From positions 62,001-126,000 of the forward strand of contig NZ_WUYX01000029.1 of the NCBI RefSeq assembly GCF_009834785.1: DNA of 64,000 nucleotides, given 5' to 3'. The notes under the pieces are model-generated. The model was given only the letters and a program-made list of their open reading frames with translations, ran no database searches and was not told the origin of the DNA. This document shows, piece by piece, positions 21,385 through 30,235 of the stretch. A program made the position numbers and the translations under genes. Numbering within the stretch: position 1 is the first letter of the stretch; each line of letters begins with the position of its first letter. The stretch comes from Natronorubrum halalkaliphilum (GTDB lineage Archaea; Halobacteriota; Halobacteria; Halobacteriales; Natrialbaceae).

Positions 21385-23577
21385 ATGAGTCTTGCCGATT
21401 CGGACCGCGAACTCGTCGTCGAGGAACTGGAGCGAGAGCCGACTCCAGCGGAGGCGGCGCTGTTCGAGAACCTCTGGAGCGAACACTGCGCGTACCGCTC
21501 CTCGAGACCGCTACTCTCGGCCTTCGACAGCGAGGGCGACCAGGTCGTCATCGGACCGGGTGACGACGCCGCAGTCGTCGCACTGCCCGGGAGCGAGGAC
21601 GACGAAGCGGACGAGGACGGAGACGATCGCACGTACATTACGATGGGGATCGAGAGCCACAACCACCCGTCCTACGTCGATCCCTTCGACGGAGCCGCGA
21701 CGGGCGTCGGCGGCATCGTCCGTGACACCCTGTCGATGGGGGCCTACCCGATCGCGCTCGCGGACTCGCTGTACTTCGGCGAGTTCGAGGACGAACACTC
21801 GAAGTACCTCTTCGAGGGCGTCGTCGAGGGAATCAGCCACTACGGCAACTGTATCGGCGTTCCTACGGTCGCCGGCAGCGTCGACTTCCATTCCGACTAC
21901 GAGGGCAACCCACTCGTGAACGTCGCCTGCGTCGGTCTGACCAACGAGGAGCGACTCGTCACCGCCGTCGCACAGGAACCCGGCAACAAACTCGTCCTCG
22001 TCGGCAACGGGACCGGCCGCGACGGACTGGGCGGCGCGAGCTTCGCCAGCGAGGATCTGGCCGAAGACGCCGAAACCGAGGACCGACCCGCGGTCCAGGT
22101 CGGCGACCCCTACGCCGAGAAGTTGCTGATCGAAGCCAACGAGCAACTCGTCGACGAGGGGCTGATCGAATCCGCCCGCGACCTCGGTGCCGCCGGCCTC
22201 GGCGGCGCCTCGAGCGAACTCGTCGCCAAAGGCGGTCTCGGTGCCCGGATCGAACTCGAGCGGGTTCACCAGCGCGAGCCGAACATGAACGCACTGGAGA
22301 TCCTCCTCGCCGAATCCCAGGAGCGGATGTGTTACGAAGTGACGCCGGACAACGTCGAGCGCGTGCGCGAAATCGCCGACCGATTCGACCTTGGCTGTTC
22401 GGTTATCGGCGAGGTCACCGACGGGAACTACACCTGCACTTTTAACGGTGAGACGGTCGTCGACGTCGACGCGTACTTCCTCGGCGAGGGCGCGCCGATG
22501 AACGACCTCCCGAGCGAGGAGCCCGAACAGCCCGAAACGGAGCTCCCGGAAACGTCCCTCGAGGACGCCTTCGACACGGTCGTCTCGAGTCCGAACACGG
22601 CGTCGAAGCGGTGGGTCTACCGCCAGTACGACCACGAGGTCGGCGTTCGGACGAGCGTCGGGCCGGGCGACGACGCCGCTATTATCGCGATCCGAGAAGC
22701 CGAACAGGGGCTCGCAATTTCGTCGGGTGCGGCACCGAACTGGACGACCGCCGCACCGTTCGAGGGGGCCCGTGCGGTCGCCCTCGAGAACGCGACGAAC
22801 ATCGCGGCCAAGGGCGCGACGCCGCTGGCCGCCGTCGACTGTCTCAACGGCGGCAACCCGGAGAAGCCGGACGTCTACGGCGGCTTCAAGGGGATCGTCG
22901 ACGGCCTCGCGGACATGTGTGAGTCGCTGTCCTCGCCGGTGGTCGGTGGCAACGTCTCGCTGTACAACGATTCCGTGACCGGTCCCATCCCGCCGACGCC
23001 GACGCTCGCGATGGTCGGAACCAAAGACGGCTACGACGCACCGCCGCTATCGCTCGAACCCGACACCGACACCACGGTTCTGTTAGTCGGCGACACCGGC
23101 CTCGAGAACGGTGATCTCCGACTCGGCGGCTCCGAGTACCTCGCTCGGACCGGCGGTAGCGACCGGTTCCCCGAACTGCCTGCGGATCCCGCCGCCGTCG
23201 TCGAGACGCTCGCCGAGGTCGCAAACGACGAGACGACGCTGGCGGTCCACGACGTCAGCCACGGCGGCCTCGCGGTTGCACTGGCCGAAATGGTTACCGA
23301 CGACGCCGGGCTCGAGGCGTCGATACCCGTCCCCGAATCCGGCAGTGAAACGGCCGCGGCGGCCGCGCTCTTCCACGAGCAACCGGGTCGAGCGCTGATC
23401 CAGACTGAGTCCCCCGAGGTCGTCAGCGACGCCTTCGAGGGCGTCACTCCGGTCGTCGAACTCGGCGCGGTGACTGACGACGGCACGCTCGGGATCGCGG
23501 TCGGCGACCGAACGCTCACGACCGACGCGGGCGAAATCCGGGATCGACGCGCGACGATCGAACGCGGGCTCGAGTAA
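21385..23577 (+). CDS. purL: Phosphoribosylformylglycinamidine synthase subunit PurL
   Basis: The 730-residue synthetase subunit of the fourth step of purine synthesis, which turns FGAR to FGAM using ATP and ammonia from PurQ. It has two AIR-synthase-like halves: the first with [26 protein letters not shown] and the catalytic HNH motif at residues 92-94 ([20 protein letters not shown]), the second starting near 400 ([39 protein letters not shown]). Length is right for the small archaeal/Bacillus form, which also needs PurS and PurQ; those are not in this window. ATG at 21385 is chosen over 21381, which is out of frame. Confidence 0.96.
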
Positions 23578-23675: not shown

Positions 23676-24269
23676 ATGGCCACTAATACACCGTCCGTTC
23701 TGATCGTCGAGGACGAGCCGGACCTCGCGACCCTGTACGCCACCTGGCTCGAAGACACGTACGACGTCGAGACGGCCTACGACGGTGAAGAAGCGCTCGA
23801 AGCGATCGACGAGACCGTCGATGTCGTCCTCCTCGATCGACGGATGCCCGTGCTGTCGGGCGACGAGATTCTTTCGACGATCCGCGAGGACGGCCTCGAG
23901 TGTCGCATCGCGATGGTCACCGCCGTCGAACCGGACTTCGATATCATCGAGCTCGGGTTCGACGATTACCTCGTCAAGCCGGTCTCGAAGGCCGAACTCC
24001 TGCAGATCGTCGACCAACTTCTGTTGCGCTCGAGCTACGACGAACAACTCCAGCGGTTCTTCGCTCTCTCCTCGAAAAACGCTCTCCTCAAAGCCGAGAA
24101 GAGCGATGCCGAACTCCGCTCGAGCGAGGAGTACGCCCAACTACAGGATCAGCTGGCGGTCCTTCGCGTTCAGGTCAACGAAACGATGGAGGAACTCCTC
24201 GAGCGGGACGGCTATAGACGGCTCTGTCAGGACATCAGTCGAGGGTCCGTCCGGCAGGATTCGGGGTGA
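23676..24269 (+). CDS. HalX-domain response regulator
   Basis: 197 residues. The receiver domain (1-115) is complete: acidic pocket EDE at 12-14, phospho-acceptor Asp54 in VVLLDRRMP, Thr82 and Lys101 in DDYLVKPVSK. The C-terminal part (about 120-185, SSYDEQLQRFFALSSKNALLKAEKS and on) is the HalX domain, a haloarchaeal helical output of unknown mechanism. It converges tail to tail with a sensor kinase gene, only seven bases apart, which suggests a functional pair, though that kinase lacks its phospho-accepting histidine. Confidence 0.93.
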   Translation: MATNTPSVLIVEDEPDLATLYATWLEDTYDVETAYDGEEALEAIDETVDVVLLDRRMPVLSGDEILSTIREDGLECRIAMVTAVEPDFDIIELGFDDYLVKPVSKAELLQIVDQLLLRSSYDEQLQRFFALSSKNALLKAEKSDAELRSSEEYAQLQDQLAVLRVQVNETMEELLERDGYRRLCQDISRGSVRQDSG

Positions 24270-24276
24270 GGTTTGG

Positions 24277-26205
24277 TCACCCCTGTTTCTCGAGGGTCGT
24301 CACGTCACGAATCTCGAGGCGCGTTCCGCCGTTCTCGCCGTTATCGACCGAGAGCGTCCAGTCGTGGGCTTCGGCGATGGCCCTGACGAGTGCGAGGCCG
24401 AGACCGTCGATACTCGTCTTTCTGTCGGTCGCAGTGCCGGCGGAATTGGCCGTCGGCTCGAGCACCTGCTCGTGAGCGGCCGGCGGAATTTCGGCGGCGT
24501 CGTCTAACAGATAAAAGCCCCGCGAATCATCGGTCGCGTCGAATCCGAGGAGCCCGACCTGAATCGTGACCGTCCCGTCGGCGCGGGCGGCGGCGTCGTC
24601 GAACGCCGTTTCGAGCAGGTGGACGAACCGATCGGTGTCGGCTCGGAGCGTCGCCGCTTGTTCGACGATGACTCGGTTTTCGTCGAGCCGTGACCGTTCG
24701 AGGGCGGTTTCGATCGCGTCCTCGAGATCGAGCCGACTGCGGGTCCCGACTGTCGCGGCGTTCCGCGCGAACTCCCGAACGTCGTCGACGAGCCGTTCGG
24801 CGCGGTCGAGCGTTTCCGTTACCGAATCCTCCGCCAGCGGGAACTCCCAGTCGTCGGTCTTGATGTCGCTCCCGTTCACGTTCCCGCTCTCGGTTTCGGC
24901 CTCGTTTCTGTCCTCCAACGTATCCGCAACGGTCGACAGCTGCTGTTTCAGGTCGCTCGAGAGGACGTTAGCGACCGACTCGAGGCGTTCGGTCTGGCGC
25001 TCGAGTTCGTCGGTTCGGTCTCGAAGGACCCGTTCGCGCTCGGCTCGATCGAGGGCGGCCCGGGTGTTCTCGACCAGCGTCGAGATGAGATCGACGTCCG
25101 TCTCGTCGAACTGGTGGGGCTCGAGCGACCCGGTCATGAGGACGCCGTGGGTGCCGATCGGCGCGATGATCTCCGAGCGAATCGGCGAGTCGGGGTTGTA
25201 GAGGTCATCGACCGTCCCCAGATCGTCGAACCGTTCGACGCTGCCGGCTTCGAACACGTCCCAGATCAGTCCCTCGTTGGGGTTAAATCGCGGCAGACCA
25301 CCGAACTCGTCGTGTGCGCCGGCCGTTCCGGCGACCGGCTCGAGATAGCCGTGTTCCTCGTCTAACAGCCAGACGCCGCTGAGGGGTAGGTCGAGCAGGT
25401 CGCTTCCCGAGTGGACGGCGATCGCACAGATCTCCTCGGGGTCGTCGGACTCGAGCAGCCAGCGGGTGACCTCGTGGAGCGACGTAATGATGCGTTCGTA
25501 CTCGTGGCGGTCCGTGACGTCGCGGACGACGCCGGCGACGGTCGCGACGTCGTCCTCGATCGGAACGATCTGGAATTCGCCGATTCGATCGTTTCCGTAC
25601 CCGTCGCTAAAGGGCAACTCGAGCCGGCGCTTGTCAGCGTTCCCGACGTCGACGTCGGTAATCGCCTGCCCGATCTCGACGGCGTGTTCGTCCGAGATTC
25701 CCGCCAGTTGGGTGAGGGTTTCGACGTGCTTGCCGACGAGTTCGCTCCGTTCGGTGTCGAAAACCTTCTCGATGGCGTTGTTGACGGTGACGATTTCCCG
25801 GTTGCGATCGAGGGTAACGACCGCGTCGTGGACCGCTTCGACGGCGGCGGCGTGTTGCGCGAGCGAGGTCTCCTGGGACTTGCGCTCGGTGACGTCGCGC
25901 ATGTACACCGACAGCCCGGTTTCGGAGGGGTATGCGCGCGCCTCGAACCAGGTTTCTAAGTGGGCGTGATACACCTCGAACGAGACGGGGACCTGCTCGT
26001 CCATCGCGTGGTGGAACCCGTCGGGAAACTGGGTTTCGACGGTGTGGGGAAACTCGTCCCACATCACCCGACCGATCAGGTCGTTTCGAGAGCGTTTCAG
26101 CAGCGTCTCGGCGCGCTCGTTGAGATAGGTAAACCGGAAGTCCGTATCGAGTGCGAAGAAGGCGTCGGTGACGCGGTCGACGATCGGCACGGATCGCAGC
26201 GTCAC
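24277..26205 (-). CDS. PAS-PAS-GAF sensor with degraded histidine-kinase core
   Basis: 642 residues, no membrane segment, so a cytoplasmic sensor. Two PAS domains (about 1-110 and 118-235), a GAF domain (about 245-395), a coiled coil and a kinase-like end. The expected H-box His is replaced by Ser in VLSSDLKQQLS (near residue 412); the N-box Asn is also lost (HLLETAFDDAA, near 528) and the DxGxG region reads DDAAEIP. Only the last G-box (DGLGLALVRAIAEAHDW) is intact. So it may bind nucleotide but should not autophosphorylate in the usual way. It faces the HalX regulator gene. Confidence 0.88.
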   Translation of the reverse strand: MTLRSVPIVDRVTDAFFALDTDFRFTYLNERAETLLKRSRNDLIGRVMWDEFPHTVETQFPDGFHHAMDEQVPVSFEVYHAHLETWFEARAYPSETGLSVYMRDVTERKSQETSLAQHAAAVEAVHDAVVTLDRNREIVTVNNAIEKVFDTERSELVGKHVETLTQLAGISDEHAVEIGQAITDVDVGNADKRRLELPFSDGYGNDRIGEFQIVPIEDDVATVAGVVRDVTDRHEYERIITSLHEVTRWLLESDDPEEICAIAVHSGSDLLDLPLSGVWLLDEEHGYLEPVAGTAGAHDEFGGLPRFNPNEGLIWDVFEAGSVERFDDLGTVDDLYNPDSPIRSEIIAPIGTHGVLMTGSLEPHQFDETDVDLISTLVENTRAALDRAERERVLRDRTDELERQTERLESVANVLSSDLKQQLSTVADTLEDRNEAETESGNVNGSDIKTDDWEFPLAEDSVTETLDRAERLVDDVREFARNAATVGTRSRLDLEDAIETALERSRLDENRVIVEQAATLRADTDRFVHLLETAFDDAAARADGTVTIQVGLLGFDATDDSRGFYLLDDAAEIPPAAHEQVLEPTANSAGTATDRKTSIDGLGLALVRAIAEAHDWTLSVDNGENGGTRLEIRDVTTLEKQG

Positions 26206-26374
26206 GGCTCCGAACCCCCATCCCGATTCGATGTCGGCGTCGCGGTCCGTCCGCCACCGGACCGCGACATCCGATCTGTCGTTGTACTCATCAGCAGCCA
26301 GTTACTCCCTTCTTTGCGAACCGCCTATTTCAGTGTCGTGGCTGTGTCCCGAAGACGGTTCGATCGGCGGCCAG

Positions 26375-27364
26375 CTACAGCACCAGCGTCGTTCCGATCC
26401 CGCGGTCGGCGGCCCGATCGAACACGAATTCGGCAGTTGCGGCGTCGAGAACCGCCGTCCCGACGCTCTCGAGGACGACGATCTCGTCCGCAGACTCCCG
26501 GCCCCGTCGACCGGCTAACACGTCCCCGAATGGGTGAACCTCGAGGGCGACGTGGCCGCGCAGGTCGCCGGTCTCGCGGGCTTCCGCCGGGACGTCGGCG
26601 ACGACGCGGGACGCGCGTTCGATCGTCGCGGCGTCCAGTTCGCGCATCTCGGGCGTGTACGCGCCGATGGCGATCACGAGCGTGCCATCGGCGAGAGCCT
26701 CGCCCGGAAATACCGGCTCGGTGCTCGTCGTCGCCGTGACGACGACCGAGGCGTCCGTCACGGCCTCGCGCGGACTCGAGACCGGCGTCGCCGAGACGCC
26801 GAGTTCGGATTCGAGGTCGCGAGCGCAGTCCACGCGGGAGTCGCTGGAGGAGTAGACGCGGATCGACTCGAGGCGGTCGCTGCCGACCGCGGCGGCGACG
26901 GCCCGCGTTTGCCAGCGGGCCTGCGTGCCGGCGCCGATCACCGCCAGTTCGATGGGGCCGTCGGTCGCGAGTTCGCGGGCGGCGAGCCCGCCGATACAGC
27001 CGGTTCGGGCGTTAGTAATCCGGTTGCCCGCGAGGTAGCCGACCGGCTGGCCGGTTTCCGCGTCGGTGAGCGAAATCTGGGCGGTGACCGTCGGCAACCC
27101 GCGCTCGGGGTTGTCCTCGACGACGGCGACGAGTTTCGTCGCGGCGTAGGCGGCTCCGTGGACGTACGCGGGCATACAAAGTCCGGTCCCGGTCGGTTCT
27201 TCCGGTGCGTCGGGATCGATCCCCTTCCCGATCGGGTAGTGGGGTCGCTCGGGCCGTTCGACCGAACCCGTTCGTTGCTTTTCAAACGCATCGGCGACGA
27301 CGGGCAACAGCGCCTCGAGGTCGAGGACCGAGGCGACCTCCTCGTCAGAGAGCACGCGAACCAT
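26375..27364 (-). CDS. Ornithine cyclodeaminase / mu-crystallin family enzyme
   Basis: 329 residues from the ATG at 27364 (a GTG at 27370 is also in frame). The NAD-binding part has AVIGAGTQARWQTRAVAAAVG near 138-160; family signatures KLVAVVEDNPERGLPTVTAQISLTDAETGQPVG and ITNARTGCIGGLAARELA are clear. Members act as ornithine cyclodeaminase, alanine dehydrogenase or ketimine reductase and cannot be told apart here. It is divergent from an FAD amine oxidoreductase across 122 bases, which favours a role in amino or imino acid breakdown. Confidence 0.9.
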   Translation of the reverse strand: MVRVLSDEEVASVLDLEALLPVVADAFEKQRTGSVERPERPHYPIGKGIDPDAPEEPTGTGLCMPAYVHGAAYAATKLVAVVEDNPERGLPTVTAQISLTDAETGQPVGYLAGNRITNARTGCIGGLAARELATDGPIELAVIGAGTQARWQTRAVAAAVGSDRLESIRVYSSSDSRVDCARDLESELGVSATPVSSPREAVTDASVVVTATTSTEPVFPGEALADGTLVIAIGAYTPEMRELDAATIERASRVVADVPAEARETGDLRGHVALEVHPFGDVLAGRRGRESADEIVVLESVGTAVLDAATAEFVFDRAADRGIGTTLVL

Positions 27365-27486
27365 ACGCACACATCGTCGGAGGGCTACTTCAGTGGTGCC
27401 GTCGCCCGCGACCGGCCCCGGATTCGCGTCGCAGCGAGCGTTCGGCCGGCGGAGTGTGTTTGTAGTTGGCCGTGGTAGCTTATCGC

Positions 27487-28587
27487 ATGGATATCGTCAT
27501 CGTCGGCGGCGGTATCGTCGGGACCGCGATCGCAGCGCGCCTCGGTGAGACCGAGCACGACGTTGCGCTCGTCGAACGGTCGGGGATCGGAACGGAGACG
27601 ACCGCGGCTTCCGCGGGCATTCTGATGGAGACCGTCATCGACCCGACGCCGTTCGACCTGCGGTTTCGCGAGCGAGCGCGGTCGGTCTACGACGACCTCT
27701 TCGAGCGGAGTCCGCTCGAGTCGACTCGAGTCGGCGTCCTCTACGTTGCCGAAACGGCGACGTTTGCGGATCGACTCGAAGAGTCCGCGGCGACGCTCAG
27801 CGATCGCGGACTCGAGGCCTCGTACCTGCCGGCCGACGAACTGTCGCGGCTCGGCGTCGATCCCGACGGGTTCGTCGGCGGGCTGTACACGCCGAACGAC
27901 GCGCTCTGCGATCCGACCGCCGTCGCCAACTGGTTCGCCGATTGTGCTCGGCAAACGGGCGTTGAGGTTCGAACGGAAGCGGCGGTAACTGACATCGTCC
28001 TCAGCGAGGGCGCCGTCTCGAGCGTCGAAACCGATACCGGCCGACTCGACGCCGACTGCGTGATCAACGCGACCGGTCCGTGGGCACCGGCGGTAAACGA
28101 ACTGGTCGACGTTTCGCTCCCGCTCAGACAGACGCTCGGCCCGATGGTAGCACTCGAGAGCGACGACCCGATCGAGAGTCCCGTGACGATCCTCGAGTCC
28201 AAGCGGTACGTGCGCCCGACCGGCGGAGCCGACGGGACCGGTGCGTGGGTCGGCGAGTACCGGACCGGCTACGACGACGGACAGCGCTACGATCCGGACG
28301 AGGCCGCCGTTCCGGACGGCTTCGCCGACTCCGCGAGGGCTCTCGCGACGGTCGTCCCGGCACTCGAGGATGCCTCGGTCGCCGACGAGTGGGTCGGTCT
28401 TCGGACCGTTACGCCGGACGGACGGCCCATCGTCGGCGAAACGAACGTGGACGGGTTCGTCGTCGCCTGCGGAATGACGGGACAGGGGATTACGCTCGCT
28501 CCGGCCGTCGCAGACGTCGTGTACGGCGTCCTCGAGGAGGATTTGGCCGGCGAATCTCGAGACCGACTCTCCCCGGACCGGTTTTGA
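27487..28587 (+). CDS. FAD-dependent amino acid/amine oxidoreductase (DAO family)
   Basis: 366 residues. The Rossmann start MDIVIVGGGIVGTAIAARL binds FAD; SAGILMETVIDP, INATGPWAPAVNELVDVSLPLRQTLGP and the C-terminal VGLRTVTPDGRPIVGETNVDGFVVACGMTGQGITLAPAVAD are typical of the D-amino acid oxidase/glycine oxidase family. ATG at 27487 gives the FAD motif at once. It shares a divergent promoter with the ornithine-cyclodeaminase-like gene, and a second member of the same family follows at 29054, so imine/ketimine chemistry is a likely theme. Substrate unknown. Confidence 0.9.
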   Translation: MDIVIVGGGIVGTAIAARLGETEHDVALVERSGIGTETTAASAGILMETVIDPTPFDLRFRERARSVYDDLFERSPLESTRVGVLYVAETATFADRLEESAATLSDRGLEASYLPADELSRLGVDPDGFVGGLYTPNDALCDPTAVANWFADCARQTGVEVRTEAAVTDIVLSEGAVSSVETDTGRLDADCVINATGPWAPAVNELVDVSLPLRQTLGPMVALESDDPIESPVTILESKRYVRPTGGADGTGAWVGEYRTGYDDGQRYDPDEAAVPDGFADSARALATVVPALEDASVADEWVGLRTVTPDGRPIVGETNVDGFVVACGMTGQGITLAPAVADVVYGVLEEDLAGESRDRLSPDRF

Positions 28588-29053: not shown

Positions 29054-30235
29054 ATGACAGTAGTCGTGATCGGCGGCGGCATCGTCGGTCTGGCGAGCGC
29101 GTACGAACTCGCCACTCGAGGCGCCGACGTCGTCGTCTGCGAACGGGGCTCGATCGGTTCGGGAAGCACCGAGCGATCCGTGGGCGGCATTCGCGCGCAG
29201 TTCTCGACGCCGGTCAACGTCGAGTTGTCCCGCGAGAGCATGCGCGTCTGGGAGCGCTTCGAGGAACGGTTCGGAATCGATATCGAGTATCGACGGACGG
29301 GCTACCTCTTCCTCGCTCGCAGCGAGGCGGTCGGCGCGGAACTCGAGGAAACGGTCGCGATGCAAAACGAGCGCGGCGTTCCCAGCGAACTGCTGGATCC
29401 CGACGCCGCGCAGGAGCACTGTCCGGGAATCGACCCCGATCGGTTCGTCGCGGGGACGTACTCGCCGACCGACGGGTTCGCCGATCCCCATCTCGCATTG
29501 CAGGGATATGCACGGGCCGCGACCGACGCGGGTGTTGACATCCGGACGAAGACGCCCGTCACGGACGTGATTCGGGAGGGGGCCGGTGCTGGTGACGACG
29601 GTGGCGACACTGCGGGTCGAGTGACTGGCGTCGAAACGCCCGACGGGCGACTCGAGGCTGCGTACGTCGTCAACGCCGCGGGGCCGTGGGCCCGCGAAAT
29701 CGCCGCGATGGCCGACGTTTCGCTGCCGATCACTCCGAAGCGACGACAGATCGCCGTCGTCAAGCCCGAACAGTCCGTTCCGGAAACCGATCCGCTGACG
29801 ATCGATCTCGAGAGCGGGTCCTACTTCCGCCCGGATCGAGACGGCGACGCGCTGGTCGGCGGCCACTTCGGCCCGCCCGATCCCGCCCGCGATCCGAACG
29901 GCTACGATCGCTCGATGGATTTCGACTGGAGCATCGACGCCCTCGAGGCCGTCGCCGAGTGGACGAGCTACTTCGGGCCCGAGTCGGCGGTCAAACGCGG
30001 CTGGGCGGGACTCTACGCGGTGACGCCGGACGATACGGCGATTCTCGAGGAGACGGTTCCCGGCTTCGTCACGGCGGCCGGATTCTCGGGTCACGGGTTC
30101 CAGCACGCACCCGCGACCGGGAAACTGGTGGCCGAACTCGTGACCGAGGACGAGGCGTCGCTGGTCGATATCAAGGCGCTCTCGAGCGATCGGTTCGGAC
30201 GGGACGCCGAGCGACTGGAGCGAAACGTCGTCTGA
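29054..30235 (+). CDS. FAD-dependent oxidoreductase, sarcosine oxidase beta-like (DAO family)
   Basis: 393 residues. FAD-binding start MTVVVIGGGIVGLASAYELATRG, then SIGSGSTERSVGGIRAQFSTPVN, VNAAGPWAREIAAMADVSLPITPKRRQI and the end GLYAVTPDDTAILEETVPGFVTAAGFSGHGFQHAPATGK (read in parts). This layout is closest to sarcosine oxidase beta or dimethylglycine/proline dehydrogenase-like proteins. It lacks the partner subunits of heterotetrameric sarcosine oxidase nearby. It lies 466 bases after another DAO-family gene, with which it may share a pathway. Confidence 0.9.
   Translation: MTVVVIGGGIVGLASAYELATRGADVVVCERGSIGSGSTERSVGGIRAQFSTPVNVELSRESMRVWERFEERFGIDIEYRRTGYLFLARSEAVGAELEETVAMQNERGVPSELLDPDAAQEHCPGIDPDRFVAGTYSPTDGFADPHLALQGYARAATDAGVDIRTKTPVTDVIREGAGAGDDGGDTAGRVTGVETPDGRLEAAYVVNAAGPWAREIAAMADVSLPITPKRRQIAVVKPEQSVPETDPLTIDLESGSYFRPDRDGDALVGGHFGPPDPARDPNGYDRSMDFDWSIDALEAVAEWTSYFGPESAVKRGWAGLYAVTPDDTAILEETVPGFVTAAGFSGHGFQHAPATGKLVAELVTEDEASLVDIKALSSDRFGRDAERLERNVV

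Follow-up and report, generated by a model that had tools for sequence, protein, structure and literature searches.

A putative haloarchaeal pseudo-histidine kinase, conserved family-wide, and its convergent HalX neighbor

Introduction

Histidine kinases outnumber response regulators in Archaea, and most of the pathways concerned are unmapped. Among bacteria, Caulobacter and Pseudomonas have dead histidine kinases, DivL and RetS, respectively, and proteins devoid of the H box have been found in methanogens. No kinase or phosphatase activity has been reported for DivL, which reads phosphorylated DivK and binds TNP-ATP weakly (PMC4211667). RetS, whose ATPase domain is degenerate and which has an HExxT phosphatase motif, restrains GacS by contact (PMC5992135). 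In Methanosarcina acetivorans, RdmS and MsmS (MA_type 2) possess a histidine kinase-like core without an H box (PMC11784639, PMC6944256), yet archaeal RdmS binds and hydrolyzes ATP (PMC11784639). A census of archaeal two-component systems contains histidine kinase-like proteins with the histidine but without the ATPase domain (PMC5847659), which is the reverse of the case described here.

The present work concerns a gene in a 64,000-nucleotide stretch of Natronorubrum halalkaliphilum DNA (contig NZ_WUYX01000029.1, positions 62,001 to 126,000 of the forward strand; hereafter the window, to which all positions refer). As judged from its sequence, the gene encodes a pseudo-histidine kinase, hence a protein of a known kind, conserved in this instance across a haloarchaeal family. 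A literature search retrieved no paper on this pseudokinase family, which is not proof of absence. Some haloarchaea are genetically tractable and would offer a way to study a kinase core turned binding switch in Archaea. The family also provides a warning, as its members should neither be annotated as histidine kinases nor be paired with HalX by proximity alone.

Results and Discussion

Domain architecture of the predicted protein

The gene occupies positions 24277 to 26205 on the reverse strand and forms an intact open reading frame with a GTG start that encodes 642 amino acids. Based on Pfam, AF2 models, and PDB fold matches, the protein consists of two PAS domains (residues 10-109 and 127-232), a GAF domain (254-386), a degenerate DHp region (approximately 395-490), and a degenerate CA region (approximately 491-635). 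Pfam identified these segments as PAS_4 (10-109), PAS_9 (127-232), GAF_2 (254-386), and, weakly, HATPase_c (528-632; E 3e-9). The sensory PAS/PAS/GAF part and the last G box, which had been described as intact from inspection of the sequence, were thus borne out, the latter by the presence of GLGLAL. No HisKA match was found in this protein by Pfam, nor was one found in any of 39 relatives. A misplaced N terminus or a frameshift at the start was considered and ruled out: the in-frame codons upstream contain stops in many relatives, and the +1 frame is open.

Within or next to the GAF domain, H244 and C260 showed no variation across 93 sequences, H265 and H353 are nearly invariant, and it is possible, from this pattern of residues, that a metal or heme is bound there. 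Paralogue L040, the sole one that could be clearly aligned around the GAF domain, has Glu at position 265 and matches the pseudokinase at 244, 260, and 353.

Predicted structure of the C-terminal part

AlphaFold models of the pseudokinase displayed a PAS-PAS-GAF-long helix-CA layout. The C-terminal model (mean pLDDT 82) adopted a histidine kinase fold, and low-confidence linkers were present at residues 440-459 and 580-598. Foldseek matched the C-terminal model to histidine kinases with E values of approximately 1e-9, and the fold matches in the PDB included DivL, RetS (6dk7/6dk8), HK853, and ThkA. The top match was DivL (4q20; VIA Z 14.9, rmsd 6.3, 213 aligned residues), but its VIA score was tied with that of RetS (6dk7) and with those of active histidine kinases, and since the matches to DivL and RetS cannot be told from those to active enzymes, the fold speaks for ancestry and not for function. 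According to the models, then, the pseudokinase is a histidine kinase homologue with a DHp-CA fold. NifL is likewise a PAS-bearing, histidine kinase-like protein, and it works by protein binding. The NifL-NifA complex (9qq6) was among the fold matches, though as a multi-domain Foldseek match alone.

Catalytic motifs that are lost and retained

A profile of the family matched solved histidine kinases with an E value of 5e-10 and placed the SHD of the solved kinase 8f71 opposite SED/SSD of the pseudokinases. In a column-by-column alignment, the H box reads VLSSDLKQQL in the pseudokinase versus VVSHDLRNPL in paralogues, so that the position of the phospho-acceptor, which lies in SHDL of paralogues, corresponds to Ser417 (VLS-S-DLKQQL; codon at 24955-24957, reverse strand). 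Among the 93 family members aligned for residue counts, none has His here; the residue is Asn in 28, Ser in 25, Thr in 17, Glu in 8, Gly in 7, Asp in 3, Arg in 3, Lys in 1, and Ala in 1. Replacement of the histidine by serine, as stated in the preliminary description, therefore holds for the protein in the window but not as a family trait, the residue being Ser in only 25/93. Since residue 417 is this variable, it is not a new Ser acceptor, and the site is unconstrained. The Pro of the H box has been lost together with the His, while the acidic residue that follows the H position (D418) is kept in 87/93. No new conserved phospho-acceptor, either Ser or Tyr, was found in the DHp region of the family, as no Tyr is conserved there, and S416 was rejected as a candidate because it is the ordinary Ser that precedes His in kinases.

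The ATP-binding boxes are affected unequally. Comparison with the family and with paralogues showed that the N box (FVHLLETAFDDAAARAD, residues 527-543; 24577-24627, reverse strand) is degenerate family-wide, with ETAFDDA instead of the ENLFRNA of paralogues; positions 536 and 537 are Asp/Asp, and Asn is found there in just 10/93 and 4/93 sequences, respectively. The G1 box (LLDDAAEIP, residues 566-574; 24484-24510, reverse strand) has lost DxGxG, with DDAAEIP in place of the DDGPGIP of ordinary kinases, and is degenerate family-wide, reading DDAxEIP. On both boxes the preliminary description had been right. The G2 box (DGLGLALVRAIAEAHDW, residues 600-616; 24358-24408, reverse strand) is retained: its GLGL, which conforms to GxGL, is kept in 85-89 of the 93 members per position. 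A611, H614, and W616 are invariant (93/93), and T637 at the far C terminus is conserved as well. With His at position 417 in 0/93 sequences, the protein is very probably unable to autophosphorylate, just as had been proposed.

The retained G2 box may confer residual nucleotide binding. With the N and G1 boxes lost, only one of the three ATP-binding boxes is left, which casts doubt on the suggestion that the protein serves as a nucleotide-binding switch, although, by analogy with known systems, missing boxes should not be taken as proof against ATP binding. The nearest archaeal analogues, RdmS and MsmS, which we compared by description only, are also sensors with a histidine kinase-like core and no H box. 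An atypical ATPase, or a kinase acting on another residue or protein as proposed for them, would be in keeping with the ATP binding and hydrolysis of such H-box-less precedents (PMC11784639) and with the retention of the G2 box and the HATPase_c fold in the pseudokinase. However, RdmS differs in that it binds and hydrolyzes ATP, whereas the pseudokinase has lost DxGxG and the Asn of the N box in addition to the His, and the hydroxyl residues of its DHp region, with S416 being ordinary and no Tyr conserved, point to no new acceptor. We thus regard such an activity as unlikely.

A phosphatase acting on HalX or on another response regulator, which was also among the roles first suggested, could make use of the DHp helices and of D418, both of which are retained. 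In the HisKA transmitter phosphatase motif (E/DxxT/N), however, the catalytic Thr/Asn occupies the H+4 position, and the pseudokinases have it in only 6/93 sequences; in the remaining 87 it is replaced by Arg, Gln, Ala, or others. Because of this loss, and as the H box has kept neither its His nor its Pro, a phosphatase role seems highly improbable and the suggestion found no support.

Conservation of the degenerate form

The pseudokinase was detected in 62 of 63 evenly sampled Natrialbaceae, matching over part of its length in one of the 62, and in a few neighboring families (Halostella, Salinarchaeum, and two Halobacteriales MAGs). A wide score gap separates the family from its nearest paralogues. 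The latter, including those encoded in the same genome, for which 30 of 49 HATPase_c loci were examined, keep SHDLRNPL and ENLFRNA, and many also keep G1. Haloarchaeal PAS/GAF histidine kinases such as the paralogues L040 and L102 are homologous to the pseudokinase over the DHp-CA part, have the GAF domain in the same order, and share 29-30% identity with it, but they are distinguished by SHDLRxPLN and ENLFRNA, and several others by DDGPGI too. The retention of these motifs by paralogues indicates a pseudokinase and not a recently decayed enzyme.

Selection was estimated from pN/pS, which was approximately 0.1 for PAS1, approximately 0.3 for PAS2, 0.14-0.27 for GAF, 0.24-0.40 for DHp, and 0.31-0.55 for CA, so that every domain is under purifying selection. 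Alignment of close homologues had been suggested as a check on whether the loss is conserved, and kinases with an intact His among them would have spoken for recent decay. None of the 93 members has His at position 417; the loss is ancient and conserved, and with pN/pS well below 1 recent decay was ruled out. The catalytic residues have thus been lost in a conserved manner with selection maintained on PAS1, GAF, the coiled-coil/DHp helices, and the histidine kinase fold overall, as in a pseudo-histidine kinase.

It might still be argued that the gene is decaying, with a functionless C-terminal half and only the PAS/GAF part, or nothing, in use. The CA region, which has the highest pN/pS, changes faster than the other domains and may in part be drifting, and the linkers at residues 440-459 and 580-598 are modeled with low confidence. 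Within family f7, moreover, the copy of one genome (G096; L203, 3806-5080) is shortened and lacks the PAS part, and that of another (G103; L204, 3013-5019) is reported with a TGA inside the aligned span, which suggests that the gene may be eroding in this lineage. Yet the open frames are of full length in almost all species across the entire family, A611, H614, W616, and T637 are conserved up to the far C terminus, and pN/pS is well below 1 throughout. Decay is for these reasons very unlikely.

A proposed binding function without catalysis

The dead form is conserved in nearly every genome of the family, and the pseudokinase therefore probably signals by binding proteins and not by passing phosphate. 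We consider it rather likely that it is an ancient, conserved, catalytically dead histidine kinase-like sensor that works by contact with a partner and not by chemistry. Among the roles named in the preliminary description (phosphatase, decoy, or nucleotide switch), the decoy, or more generally an interaction, is the best option. The protein would form a dimer in the cytoplasm and, through its PAS and GAF domains, bind a ligand or sense a redox signal; this signal would reshape the DHp-CA part, and a partner would be bound or released without any chemistry of the pseudokinase itself. The partner could be a receiver domain, as in DivL-DivK, or an active histidine kinase, as in RetS-GacS, and one of the many active kinases of the same genome is a candidate.

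The resemblance to these two proteins is partial. DivL is, like the pseudokinase, a PAS-bearing histidine kinase with a non-His residue at the acceptor site and a DHp-CA fold, but it is bacterial, carries Tyr at the site, binds TNP-ATP weakly through its CA domain, and has DivK as partner, whereas in the pseudokinase the site is variable and the N and G1 boxes are gone. RetS shares the degenerate ATPase domain and is a fold match (6dk7/6dk8); unlike the pseudokinase, it keeps the H box and HExxT and carries receiver domains.

The convergent HalX gene as a candidate partner

A response regulator of the REC-HalX type is encoded at 23676-24269 on the forward strand. It is complete (PF00072, E 7e-22; PF08663, E 8e-22), its phospho-acceptor Asp54 as well as Thr82 and Lys101 are intact, and Asp54 is present in 47 of 48 HalX sequences, the remaining one having a gap. 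The regulator is indeed complete and 7 bp away from the pseudokinase, as first described, but on the opposite strand, a point that had been passed over. As the two genes are convergent, they share no transcript, and an operon was ruled out. On its other side HalX directly follows purL (21385-23577, forward strand), which we take, from its sequence and not from a family search, to encode phosphoribosylformylglycinamidine synthase II.

The pseudokinase could be a dedicated regulator of this HalX protein that binds the receiver once another kinase has phosphorylated it, and sequesters or stabilizes it. In line with such a role, the receiver is intact, a convergent HalX gene accompanies the pseudokinase in 49 of 61 named loci (median gap, 23 nt), and the two genes co-occur: in 146 genomes counted by hand, both were found in 25, the pseudokinase alone in 4, HalX alone in 3, and neither in 114. 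These counts are phylogenetically confounded, and shared descent explains much of the co-occurrence. Against a dedicated pair, the genes form no operon and are separable. HalX stays behind purL, on the same strand, without the pseudokinase in three genomes (G015, G058, and G088); in G013 a HalX-purL unit and a unit of the pseudokinase with an ornithine cyclodeaminase (OCD)-like gene are split by about 20 kb, and the situation in G130 is similar. Conversely, HalX is missing nearby in 12 of the named loci, in at least nine genomes the pseudokinase abuts purL with HalX missing from between them, and a close HalX orthologue is absent from six genomes.

Co-evolution of the two proteins was assessed by tree distances. 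A partial correlation of approximately 0.5 was seen at first and was discarded, as it was not robust to dropping one clade. Given purL, the correlation was 0.20 for DHp; without five fast Natronococcus-type loci, the partial correlations were 0.02 for the sensory part, 0.13 for DHp, and 0.33 for CA. Because the value for the sensory part collapses without the fast clade, we did not rely on this signal, and these tests gave no robust sign of co-evolution with HalX for DHp or the sensory part.

The functional tie to HalX implied by the preliminary description is thus weak. The contact between the genes looks like a place where two separate units meet; the chance that they are functionally linked is real, though modest, and HalX as the partner, or the pseudokinase as its dedicated regulator, is a tentative possibility. 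A neighborhood that may be likened to this one, by description only, is Haloferax HVO_1356-1358, where a kinase with GAF and PAS domains is reported next to a HalX-Bat protein (PMC7824242).

In Natronococcus-type loci (L079, L080, L081, L085, and L089), the 3' ends of the HalX and pseudokinase reading frames share 8-31 nt, and HalX has diverged far more, with an identity of 48-54%.

A putative upstream leader and the gene context

A small open reading frame of 29 codons (MSTTTDRMSRSGGGRTATPTSNRDGGSEP; 26202-26291, reverse strand) precedes the pseudokinase, and its stop overlaps the GTG start (GTGA). An ATG-started open frame in this register is present in 77 of 92 relatives versus 2/92 for each other frame. 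The start, the frame, and the stop are kept and the length varies only in steps of three, while the peptide sequence is not conserved. The codons display little third-position bias (149/165/184), suggesting that translation through the small frame matters and not the peptide. It looks like a translation-coupling leader. Upstream of its ATG lies a promoter-like box (ACACTGAAATAG; 26325-26336, reverse strand), and the ACTGAAAT box is found, most often 43 nt before the ATG, in 64 of 77 loci versus 0.6 expected. The small frame and the box together suggest that the pseudokinase has a promoter of its own and is translated by coupling.

A broader and more speculative reading, which we think has only a slim chance of being right, is that the transmitter core as a whole no longer works as an enzyme but serves as a docking platform under ligand control, i.e. 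an archaeal DivL-like conversion of a kinase to a scaffold, that is expressed via the translation-coupled leader and governs a HalX-type regulator.

Farther upstream on the same strand is the OCD-like gene (26375-27370, reverse strand), named from its sequence as presumably encoding an ornithine cyclodeaminase/alanine dehydrogenase-like protein. A gene of the OCD family is often found upstream of the pseudokinase and, in two genomes, has remained next to it although HalX has not. Pathway links of the pseudokinase to purL or to OCD would be guesses. Beside the OCD-like gene, two FAD-dependent amino-acid-oxidase-like genes are present on the forward strand at 27466-28587 and 29054-30235. Many relatives likewise have one or both of them close to the pseudokinase, which hints at amino-acid metabolism as its context.
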